64,000 nt of DNA from Terricaulis sp. (lineage in GTDB: Bacteria; Pseudomonadota; Alphaproteobacteria; Caulobacterales; Aquidulcibacteraceae): the NCBI GenBank assembly GCA_024707365.1, contig JANPZV010000004.1, positions 124,001 to 188,000 on the forward strand, read 5' to 3'. Below the pieces are notes generated by a model. That model made no database searches, was not told where the DNA came from, and saw only the letters and a program-made list of their open reading frames with translations. Each line of letters starts with the position of its first letter. The first letter of the stretch is position 1. The translations under genes were made by a program, and so were the position numbers. Shown here one piece after another: positions 22,977-64,000 of the stretch.

Positions 22977-22996
22977 CCCTCCCCGAGAGGGGAGGG
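22977..22996. terminator. Hairpin between convergent genes
   Basis: Perfect 8-bp stem CCCTCCCC/GGGGAGGG with a GAGA loop, 7 bp after the dehydrogenase stop and 8 bp before the end of the convergent protease gene. There is no clear U-run on either strand, so it may act as a weak bidirectional terminator. It also resembles the core of the CTCCCCC...GGGGGAG repeat family seen at 63.2 and 63.7 kb. Confidence 0.55.
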
Positions 22997-39168: not shown

Positions 39169-39244
39169 GCGGGTCTCCGGTCGCAAGCAAGAGAACTCTC
39201 GCTAACCATCGCGCCCGCGCGCGTCTCCCCCTCGAACGGGGGGC

Positions 39245-42299: not shown

Positions 42300-42647
42300 G
42301 CGCGCCTCCTAGGGTTTGGAGAACGGCGCGGCGGGGTGCGCCCCGGCAAGCCGCGCATGCGGCGCTCGCGTCAGCGAAAATTTACGCGCGCTTTGTTCAA
42401 AACGCAAAGGCCTCCACCTTCTCCCCCTCGCAGGGGGCGCTCGGCGGGGAAGCAAGTAACGTCCGTGGCTGGCCCGGAGCGGACGCTCGCGATTTTGTTT
42501 TCCACCCATCCCCGGATTGCGCGAGAGCGCAAGTCCGGGGCCCATCACCTCAAACGTTTGCGTTCATAGGCTCCGGGCTCGCAGCTTCGCTGCGCCCCGG
42601 AGATGGGTTGTTTCTCTTCCCGGCGAAAAGCGAACCTCGGAGCGCGC
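42300..42647. other. Intergenic region with repeat copies
   Basis: 348 bp between divergent/convergent neighbours with no credible protein. It contains a family B-like core at 42421-42438 (CTCCCCCTCGCAGGGGGC) and a full family A repeat at 42504-42608 (separate entry). A TTTTGTTTT patch near 42493 is the only AT-rich stretch. Confidence 0.6.
42504..42608. repeat. Palindromic repeat, family A copy 2
   Basis: 105 bp. Ends ACCCATCCCCGG and (right) GGAGATGGGT, imperfect inverted repeats. The left hairpin is CCCCGGATTGCGC/GCGCAAGTCCGGGG around GAGA, then the core CCCATCACCTCAAACGTTTG, then the right hairpin around GCAGCTTCGCTGC. It sits before the GNAT gene 3' end. Confidence 0.8.
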
Positions 42648-50171: not shown

Positions 50172-50226
50172 GCCATCCCCCTATAGGGGGAGGCGGCTCG
50201 CGGCGGCGCCGCGAGACGGAGGGGCG
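50172..50226. repeat. Palindromic repeat, family B solo copy
   Basis: CCCCCTATAGGGGG hairpin, then GGCTCGCGGCGGCGCCGCGAG and ACGGAGGGG. The plan (C5/G5 hairpin, second GC hairpin, trailing GAGGGG) is the same as in the copies that bracket the DUF559 gene at 63.2 and 63.7 kb. No gene is attached here. Confidence 0.65.
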
Positions 50227-62280: not shown

Positions 62281-63156
62281 ATGTCCAACCGCCCGCCCCG
62301 CTGTTTCCAGGATGTGATCCTGACGCTCCAAAACTATTGGGCCGGAGAGGGCTGCGCGATTTTGCAGCCTTATGACGAGCAAGTGGGTGCGGGTACGCTG
62401 CATCCGGCCACCACGCTGCGCGCGCTGGGCCCCAAGCCGTGGCGCGCAGCTTACGTGCAGCCCTCGCGCCGGCCCAAGGATGGCCGCTATGGCGAGAACC
62501 CGAACCGGCTGCAGCACTATTACCAATTTCAGGTGATCCTGAAGCCGAACCCGGCGAACCTGCAGGCGCTTTACCTCAACTCGCTCGCCGCCATCGGCAT
62601 TGATCCCTTGCTGCACGACATTCGCTTTGTGGAAGACGATTGGGAAAACCTGACTGTCGGCGCCTGGGGGCTTGGCTGGGAGGTGTGGTGCGATGGCATG
62701 GAAGTCTCGCAATACACCTACTTTCAGCAAGTCGGCGGGCTCGATGTGCGACCTGTGTCGGGCGAGTTGACGTACGGGCTTGAGCGGCTGGCGATGTACG
62801 TGTTCGGTGTTGATCGCGTGTACGATCTGCCGTTCAACGATCCGGACAGCCCGTATCCGCTGACCTACGGCGATGTGTTTCTCGAAAACGAGAAGCAGCA
62901 ATCGCGTTTCAATTTTGAACTCAGCGATCCTGAGCAAAACCTGCGCTGGTTCGGCGATGCGGAAGCGACGGCCAAGCGCTTGCTGGACGCGGGCGCGGTG
63001 CTGCCGGCGTTTGATTACACGTTGAAGGCGTCGCACTTGTTCAACTTGCTCGACGCGCGCGGCGTGGTGAGCCCCACCGAACGCCAAAGCTTCATCGCCC
63101 GCGTGCGCGATCTGGCCAAAGGCTGCGCGAGCGCTTGGGCGGAGAGCCAGCAATGA
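62281..63156 (+). CDS. glyQ: Glycyl-tRNA synthetase alpha subunit
   Basis: 291 aa catalytic subunit of the bacterial alpha2beta2 enzyme. Motif 1 [40 protein letters not shown] (motif 2), and [20 protein letters not shown] (motif 3) are all in place; the C-terminus [13 protein letters not shown] is normal. The stop at 63154-63156 overlaps the ATG of a DUF559 frame; glyS follows only after that insertion. Frame intact. Confidence 0.97.
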
Positions 63157-63749
63157 CGCCGCAAGATGAGGCGCGCGCACCAGCCCTCCCCCTCGATGGG
63201 GGAGGCGCCGCGAAGCGGCGGAGGGGGTGCGCCCGCTGGCGTCAAAGGCTTTGCGCTCAAGGGCGCCGCCGCCAAGGCGCGCTGGATCAAGTCGCGCGCA
63301 AAAAAACGCTGCGCACGCAAACAACGCCGCACGAGCGCGCGATGTGGCGTTTGTTGCATGAGGGCGAGCTGGCCGCGCTGAATTGGCGCAAGCAGGCGCC
63401 GTTTGGCGGATCTGTGCTCGACTTTGTGTCTCATCCGGCGCGTCTGGTTGTGGAAGTTGATGGCGCGCAGCATGCGCAGGCCGGCCAGGCGCTGCACGAT
63501 GCGCAGCGAACAGCCGCGCTTGAGCGCGAGGGGTATCGCGTATTGCGGTTTTGGAATGTCGATGTGGTGAAGGCGAAGACTGGCGTGTGGGACGCAATAT
63601 ATCAGGCGGCGATGCAAACGGCGGCGCATCGGCGCATGGAGCGGTGGCGTCGGGATGACGCCTTGCGCGCCAGGATCGTGAATGATGGCGGGTCTCACCC
63701 CCTCGGTCACGCTGCGCGTGACAGCTCCCCCATCGAGGGGGAGCAATAA
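63153..63749 (+). CDS. DUF559 endonuclease-like protein inserted between glyQ and glyS
   Basis: Frame of up to 198 aa. The DUF559 core is unmistakable: [40 protein letters not shown], and [17 protein letters not shown], with Asp and Glu positions of the Vsr/PD-(D/E)xK-like fold. It is flanked by two exact inverted copies of a palindromic repeat (63185-63229 and 63696-63743) that the open frame reads through at both ends. The true start is unclear: ATG 63153 would translate the left repeat, and an alternative frame joins at the A-run 63300-63306 ([11 protein letters not shown]). Function unknown; a nuclease is inferred. Confidence 0.78.
63185..63229. repeat. Palindromic repeat, family B, left copy flanking DUF559
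   Basis: Core CTCCCCCTCGATGGGGGAG (7-bp stem, TCGAT loop), then the hairpin CGCCGCGAAGCGGCG and AGGGGGTG. Exact inverted match of the 19-bp core to the copy at 63725-63743. Confidence 0.85.
63696..63743. repeat. Palindromic repeat, family B, right copy and glyS ribosome-binding site
   Basis: CACCCCCTC, then palindrome GTCACGCTGCGCGTGAC, then CTCCCCCATCGAGGGGGAG. Oriented opposite to the left copy. Its last bases GGGGGAG lie five bases before the glyS ATG (63749) and are the only plausible ribosome-binding site for glyS. Confidence 0.85.
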
Positions 63750-64000
63750 TGCCCCAGCTCTCATCGAACTTTTCTCCGAAGAAATTCCGGCGCGCATGCA
63801 AAAGCGGGCGGAAGAGGATTTCGCGCGGCTGATGGGCGATAAGCTCAAGGGCGCGGGGCTTGAGGCCAAGGCGATTCAAACCTTTTCCTCGCCGCGCCGG
63901 CTTGGGCTTGTGATCGAAGATCTGCCGGCGAAAGCCGCCGACGTGAACGAGGAAAAAGAAAGGCCCGCGCGTGGGCGCGCCCGATCAGGCGGTGGCGGGC
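63749..64000 (+). CDS. glyS: Glycyl-tRNA synthetase beta subunit, N-terminal part (3' end outside window; two frameshifts)
   Basis: ATG 63749 overlaps the DUF559 stop (TAATG). The corrected N-terminus LLIELFSEEIPARMQKRAEE, then FSSPRRLGLVIEDLPAK, is typical of GlyS, which binds tRNA-Gly and completes the alpha2beta2 enzyme. One C is missing near 63759-63763 and another indel lies near 63955-63962 (KGPRVGAPDQAVAG in the last frame). Only about 83 codons are in the window. Confidence 0.9.

Follow-up and report, generated by a model that had tools for sequence, protein, structure and literature searches.

We have found that genes of the DUF559 family often lie between inverted copies of a palindromic element of the PIT/BoxC type, in a 64,000-nucleotide stretch of Terricaulis sp. 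DNA (the window), across its genus and in other bacteria. Gene and element are associated well above control levels, the paired elements point their heads outward, arms and tails follow a mirror rule, gene and element co-occur among genomes, homology between units at unrelated sites is limited to the unit, and occupied sites are polymorphic. Judging from sequence, we consider it probable (roughly 0.7) that DUF559 is the cognate nuclease of these PIT elements, a Vsr- and homing-endonuclease-like candidate that would mobilize or maintain them in the manner of RAYT and REPIN, with unrelated parts.

The large DUF559 family has no assigned function. The G/C-rich BoxC/PIT elements (PIT for potential intrastrand triplex) were on record in E. 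coli by the 1990s and mark unstable loci. In RAYT/REPIN systems, a Y1 HUH nuclease gene is bracketed by palindromes, gene-less inverted pairs are dispersed, and subfamilies of gene and repeat are matched. Our results suggest that DUF559 is the missing partner that spreads the BoxC/PIT repeat. Listings from the open-access subset of PMC, preprints excluded, showed no publication linking DUF559, PF04480, COG2852 or ycjD with palindromes, RAYT, REPIN, BoxC or triplexes.

The DUF559 frame and its flanking elements in the window

The window contains the following features.

62281..63156, + strand: glyQ, glycyl-tRNA synthetase alpha, left neighbor (ORF; PF02091, E 7.5e-138)
63153..63749, + strand: DUF559 frame (ORF and PF04480), running through both repeat elements
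63294..63608, + strand: DUF559 domain, 105 aa, predicted nuclease with a PD-(D/E)XK/Vsr-like fold (Pfam, alignment and structure model)
63749..64000, + strand: start of glyS, right neighbor, extending past the window end (PF02092, E 6.3e-16)
63185..63227, + strand: left triplex-type element, tail inward (sequence; rule tested on elements beside DUF559 genes), with pyrimidine arm CCTCCCCC 63185-63192, loop 63193-63197, purine arm GGGGGAGG 63198-63205, second hairpin 63206-63220 and mirror tail GGAGGGGG 63220-63227
63698..63744, - strand: right triplex-type element, inverted, tail inward (sequence and core matches), with head 63724-63744, second hairpin 63706-63722 and tail 63698-63705
50175..50226, + strand: solo element of the same type, with head TCCCCCTATAGGGGGA, second hairpin and tail GGAGGGG (read from sequence)

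The initial annotation had placed a DUF559 frame between glyQ and glyS, coupled to both, and the window does give Pfam matches to PF02091, PF04480 and PF02092 in that order. The PF04480 match (E 4.9e-29, residues 54-158) scores 100.8 bits against a cut-off of 20.6, which places the frame in the family. At the 5' end the TGA of glyQ overlaps the ATG at 63153, and at the 3' end the TAA at 63747-63749 overlaps the glyS ATG at 63749. The longest ORF of the DUF559 frame opens with TTG at 63135. In the source assembly, glyS is broken into several frames in comparison with the glyS of a relative (L052:10350-11942, from the window end onward), and the split is likely due to assembly indels in an essential gene. 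The DUF559 reading frame upstream of 63294 may be shifted as well, which makes its N-terminal frame uncertain; the domain itself, at 63294-63608, is an uninterrupted open frame.

The 19-bp core reported at 63186-63204 (+) and its exact inverted copy at 63725-63743 were both verified. Only two further matches to the core with up to 3 mismatches occur in the window, at 39225 and 42421 (3 mismatches each), and the chance expectation from 100 shuffles is a mean of 0.01 matches. A chance origin of the inverted pair is excluded at the sequence level. Related solo cores had also been proposed at three positions; the one at 50172 is a full element (+), the one at 22977 is a bare head, and the one at 42421 is weak. 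Strict palindrome matches across the 64-kb window total three. The pattern CTCCCC-N3-12-GGGGAG occurs 123 times genome-wide and its reversed control 3 times.

Predicted folds of the element and of the DUF559 protein

The elements consist, in order, of a pyrimidine arm, a loop, a purine arm, a spacer (2-3 nt or a second hairpin) and a tail that tends to mirror the purine arm. A perfect mirror G pattern was found downstream of 257 of 748 unique asymmetric-arm entries, compared with 70 for the direct pattern and a mean of 31 (maximum 42) for permuted arms; since both strands of each palindrome were read, a tail is possible for roughly half of the entries at most. The pairings G*G:C, A or T*A:T, and T*C:G are obeyed throughout by 73 of 116 distinct arm/tail pairs, where random non-G letters are expected to give 36 (maximum 46). 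Opposite A, the tail carries A (140), T (91) or C (17). Opposite C, it carries T in 16 of 37 cases, C in 13 and A in 8, so the C-to-T part of the code is modest. As read from the letters, this rule is the code of a predicted purine-motif intrastrand triplex, and because arm and tail follow it we assign the elements to the BoxC/PIT/TM type. Folding of the G-rich arm and tail into a G-quadruplex was considered as well; it does not predict mirrored letters, though arm and tail may still adopt it as an alternative fold.

PIT/BoxC/TM class II elements, as far as their published description goes, have the same order of pyrimidine arm, loop, purine arm, loop and reverse-Hoogsteen tail as the elements studied here. 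The E. coli TM pattern CCCTCNCCCN3-6GGGNGAGGGN3GGGNGAGGG (Holder et al. 2015, PMC4666352) matches one element subfamily of the present set. The second loop is 3 nt in the E. coli motif, whereas both window elements carry a hairpin there; the same replacement is seen in many other elements, while some have 2-3 nt, and the arms vary by subfamily. In the available text of the same paper, inverted pairs number five in MG1655, and the TMECO triplex formed in vitro while in vivo footprinting gave no support for its stable formation. That text gives neither a function, nor a mover, nor a class of flanking genes, and it cites earlier triplex-motif work by Maher and colleagues; the words DUF559 and endonuclease are absent from the main text (PMC4666352).

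In an alignment of 47 diverse DUF559 sequences, R7, E14, D43, E54, D56, G57, H60, D69 and R85 are invariant. The AlphaFold model has a mean pLDDT of 88.8, and its nearest solved folds are NGO0050 (3hrl), the homing endonuclease I-Bth0305I (3r3p) and Vsr (1cw0). NGO0050 is also close by sequence profile (E 8.9e-37), and I-Bth0305I resembles DUF559 in both fold (Foldseek TMq 0.71) and sequence profile (E 5.6e-6). By modelled fold and by residues E14, D43, E54, D56 and H60, DUF559 fits the Vsr/EDxHD branch of the PD-(D/E)XK group and is a predicted nuclease. Unlike homing endonucleases it comes with no intron or intein, and the window copy stands alone in glyQ-glyS between inverted repeats. In the bracketed gene, Pfam matched only DUF559 and, below threshold, MTES_1575; a Y1 (HUH) transposase domain was not among the matches.

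Caulobacter VsrA, which contains DUF559, is required for a DNA-damage response when the methyltransferase ScmA is absent (PMC12907096), and because of this role at least one DUF559 protein seems to act on DNA in cells. The available text of that paper, in which the term "palindrom" does not occur, interprets VsrA as a methyltransferase-linked mismatch-repair enzyme (PMC12907096). Vsr and VsrA share their fold family with the DUF559 studied here, and VsrA adds a link to DNA damage in cells; it differs in that its authors set it in mismatch repair.

Association of DUF559 genes with the elements

A bracket score was defined for each DUF559 domain as the best inverted match between its 300-bp flanks, with a threshold of at least 16. 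In the genus, 27 of 30 genomes carry DUF559, with 106 matches; 105 were examined (one short fragment overlapping another match was omitted), and 100 were scored, the other five being without full flanks. The threshold was reached at 71 of the 100 places, with 29 below it, and in 6 of 2632 shifted windows from the same loci; because many genus loci are orthologous, these places are not independent events. With 250-bp flanks, 47 of the 60 best-scoring genus places passed compared with 3 of 1581 shifted windows. When the test was anchored on ORFs, 25 of 49 DUF559 ORFs were bracketed as opposed to 9 of 674 others, and to 5 of 362 non-DUF559 ORFs of similar length. The density of pyrimidine-arm heads is 6.28/kb within 100 bp of DUF559, 3.4 at 100-200 bp, 0.93 at 200-300 bp, and 0.05-0.15 per kb past 300 bp. 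A check attached to the original proposal, that DUF559 genes be flanked by inverted repeats more often than other genes, thus came out clearly in favor of it, whether shifted positions or other ORFs serve as the reference. Genomes carry several divergent, mostly bracketed DUF559 copies, with a maximum of 11 matches in one genome. The source genome has four, each flanked on both sides by palindromes about 180 bp or less from the domain; three score 56, 17 and 19, and the fourth (L050) scores 13, below the threshold, yet has palindromes on both sides.

Outside the genus, a class-level search returned 30 loci, 28 of them with full flanks, of which 12 scored at least 16 and 16 scored less; none of the near shifted windows reached the threshold (maximum 13). 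Seven genomes selected for multiple DUF559 copies gave 17 of 20 places at or above 16, five of the 20 duplicating class-level loci. A further 80 loci from named genomes, 7 of them without flanks, were retrieved with six DUF559 domains that are themselves bracketed. In this biased sample, 26 of 32 alphaproteobacterial loci scored at least 16 (1 of 881 shifted windows), as did 30 of 41 loci from elsewhere (2 of 1082), the latter including, by record title, Beta-, Gamma- and Deltaproteobacteria, Chloroflexi, Omnitrophota, Marinimicrobia and more. In a plasmid collection, 39 records have a DUF559 match, and four of the eight inspected reached the threshold (Pseudanabaena 57, Sinorhizobium meliloti 102, Azospirillum 24 and Deinococcus 47). 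The others scored below it (Picosynechococcus 13, Synechocystis 10, and two E. coli chromosomes 8 and 9) but still show G/C-rich palindromes adjoining DUF559. The association spans Proteobacteria, Chloroflexi and other groups, down to single loci in Cyanobacteria and Deinococcus.

Across 185 loci (105 from the genus and 80 named), heads lie on both sides of DUF559 at 119, on one side at 49 and on neither at 17. Orientation of the outermost elements was read with the mirror-tail rule. At the 85 loci where both could be oriented, 66 have heads out, 3 have heads in and 16 have both elements pointing the same way; where each side has just one oriented element, 45 of 49 loci are heads out. Gene-less pairs more than 1 kb from DUF559, with a median of 120 bp, have the same arrangement: heads point outward in 24 of the 32 that could be oriented. 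Given this shared arrangement, a DUF559 unit resembles one of these pairs with a gene added inside. The pairs are dispersed inverted palindromes with defined ends, as REPINs are, and the DUF559 unit has terminal inverted repeats, as MITEs and DNA transposons do. Copies of two gene-less pairs of the source genome recur genus-wide, with sharp edges near query positions 506-618 and 1733-1862.

Gene and element also co-occur. Among 241 alphaproteobacterial genomes, 80 have any DUF559 match and 57 a full-length one by a cut of E<1e-25, which was chosen after the list was seen and by which partial matches count as absent. At least 4 heads are present in 51 of the 57 genomes with full DUF559 and in 20 of the 184 without (OR 70), and at least 10 heads in 42 and 13, respectively; fewer than 4 occur in 6 of the 57. 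The reversed control pattern totals 41 with and 40 without full DUF559. In 23 families that include both states, heads are up with DUF559 in 19, down in 2 and tied in 2. Similarity of elements correlates with that of DUF559 proteins across 53 named loci, nearly all from separate genomes (Mantel r 0.27, with 0 of 2000 permutations as high), a correlation that could come from shared ancestry.

A tblastn search found two E. coli chromosomes, and the single DUF559 place in each is ycjD, between sapF and fabI. The "plasmid" records NZ_OL790696.1 and NZ_CP141089.1 (4.8 and 4.9 Mb) resemble E. coli chromosomes. Elements adjoin ycjD on one side only, and the scores of 8 and 9 are background. Record KE47 has 16 heads in 4.94 Mb, two of them 25 and 219 bp downstream of the ycjD domain, where 0.0008 heads are expected; H240 has 33, one of them 192 bp downstream. 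A ycjD match is present in 3365 of 5426 E. coli genomes, K-12 MG1655 included. Motif counts in the available published text are 23 for MG1655 and 29 for 55989, both with ycjD, and 1 for IHE3034, in which ycjD is not beside fabI; as a comparison of three strains this agrees with a DUF559-element link and points the same way, short of proof. The E. coli among 14 control genomes gave no PF04480 match, and it may lack ycjD or the gene may have been missed. The seven genomes retrieved without ycjD at this site offered no clean empty site; they have an efflux operon beside fabI instead. At L346-L352 and L360, a TetR regulator and an RND efflux operon adjoin fabI where others have sapF-ycjD.

Probable mobility, proposed mechanism and alternative explanations

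The units of L078 (genome G003) and L084 (genome G026) lie at unrelated sites; their alignment, at 78% identity, opens with the first base of the left head and ends 3 bp beyond the right head. No further BLAST match longer than 150 bp was found within 4 kb of these units, and they share no flanking homology. Comparison of the glyQ-glyS junction among relatives had been suggested as a check, and the junction proved polymorphic. Within the genus, glyQ is present in 28 of 30 genomes, and of 26 readable junctions 10 are empty, 8 hold DUF559 (with two repeat subfamilies), 1 holds repeats without DUF559 (in G026) and 7 hold other genes. These differences may be gains or losses, in either direction. 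The other genes are found at L145, L158, L159, L160, L161, L162 and L163, and the junction looks like an insertion hotspot. Five genomes (G004, G006, G012, G016 and G028) have a further DUF559 match at a distance of about 2.8-3.1 kb from the glyQ copy, apparently beyond glyS. A gene-less pair in a coding-sequence linker (L049:4406-4517, with orthologues among L362-L389) is present in several species and absent from others. The linker pair is cut down to one head in G003, and G023 has a RAYT-type repeat in the same linker. No clear target-site duplication was seen by eye at the glyQ-glyS and linker junctions. From the sequence comparisons we infer that the unit, of the form [head-tail> DUF559 <tail-head], is mobile; the REP-like mobile cassette first put forward appears well supported by junction polymorphism together with inverted-repeat bracketing.

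We propose that DUF559 would recognize the folded single strand of its own element (hairpin plus third strand) whenever the element becomes exposed, as may happen at a replication fork, and would then nick or break the DNA at or beside the element. Repair or copying would move or copy the inverted pair, either with the gene, as an autonomous unit, or without it, as a REPIN- or MITE-like miniature. Landing sites would be intergenic or tolerant, such as the glyQ/glyS overlap.

The strongest competing explanation, though an unlikely one, is that the pairs are older or otherwise moved, and that DUF559, as a free-standing homing endonuclease, enters pairs already in place: it would cut them and be copied in through recombination involving the repeat arms. 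The nearest characterized structure is indeed a homing endonuclease, I-Bth0305I; DUF559 does lie within a heads-out pair; and gene-less pairs exist, including the one at glyQ-glyS in G026. However, gene-free glyQ-glyS sites comprise ten without an element as against that one pair, L078 and L084 have no common flanking homology, and elements are mostly missing from genomes without DUF559.

Less probable again is a host repair function, by which a Vsr-like DUF559 processes triplex-forming repeats that another agent spreads, its adjacency being regulatory or tolerated. The Vsr fold of DUF559 is in keeping with such a function, as is the need for Caulobacter VsrA in a DNA-damage response of cells without ScmA (as described in PMC12907096), and co-occurrence is also compatible with a role in clearing repeats. 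Under this explanation one would not expect heads-out elements bracketing the gene at short range, the several divergent and mostly bracketed copies per genome, or homology limited to the unit as in L078 and L084.

It is very improbable that the elements are ordinary REPs moved in trans by Y1 transposases. Y1_Tnp matches do occur in 16 of 30 genus genomes, at 34 places, and within the genus the density of heads correlates with that of Y1_Tnp (rho 0.45), less than with that of DUF559 (rho 0.58). Many Y1_Tnp loci also count as bracketed by the inverted-match score, which RAYTs should do, but the repeat involved is mostly a different one: of 30 loci retrieved, 25 were inspected by eye, and most carry GGACCGCCGGCG...CGCCGGCGGTCC and similar. 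That repeat is lacking at L117, L133 and L136, and L133 is flanked by PIT-type elements. Heads of the DUF559 type are also numerous in Y1-free genomes (G001 with 65, G009 with 63 at 87% completeness, and G008 with 133 at 57%). A RAYT origin was set aside, as the flanks of Y1_Tnp loci mostly show a different repeat. Most Y1_Tnp genes among L109-L138 have palindromes of their own beside them, built around CGCCGGCG or a similar sequence, and for this reason two REP-like systems seem to coexist in the genus. CGCCGGCG fits the Caulobacter ScmA methylation motif YGCCGGCR, which is probably a coincidence. Chance or position bias, with repeats piling up between genes and DUF559 being short genes with intergenic flanks, is refuted by the controls, since elements are often intergenic but, within the same loci, bracketing is rare both for shifted windows and for other ORFs, and the orientation is ordered.

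The likeness to RAYTs and REPs that the initial annotation drew holds for the logic and fails for the kind of element. DUF559 units share with RAYT/REPIN a bracketed nuclease gene, dispersed gene-less inverted pairs and matched subfamilies. They differ in that the enzyme is of the PD-(D/E)XK type instead of HUH, and in that the repeats are of the PIT/BoxC triplex type, with a mirror tail, while most RAYT-type genes have another repeat.

Our preferred reading remains DUF559 as the candidate nuclease of the PIT elements. We hold it slightly better than an even bet that DUF559 and PIT/BoxC form one widespread triplex-recognizing mobile system that spreads its own gene and gene-less pairs. If so, we know of no earlier mobile system based on a triplex, and ycjD would be the E. 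coli enzyme for BoxC/PIT. The tie to DUF559 makes the question of what BoxC/PIT elements do and what moves them directly testable in E. coli K-12 through ycjD, and the DUF559 family gains a likely substrate. The findings suggest a second origin of the RAYT/REPIN way of life, one in which neither the enzyme nor the DNA fold is related to those of the first.
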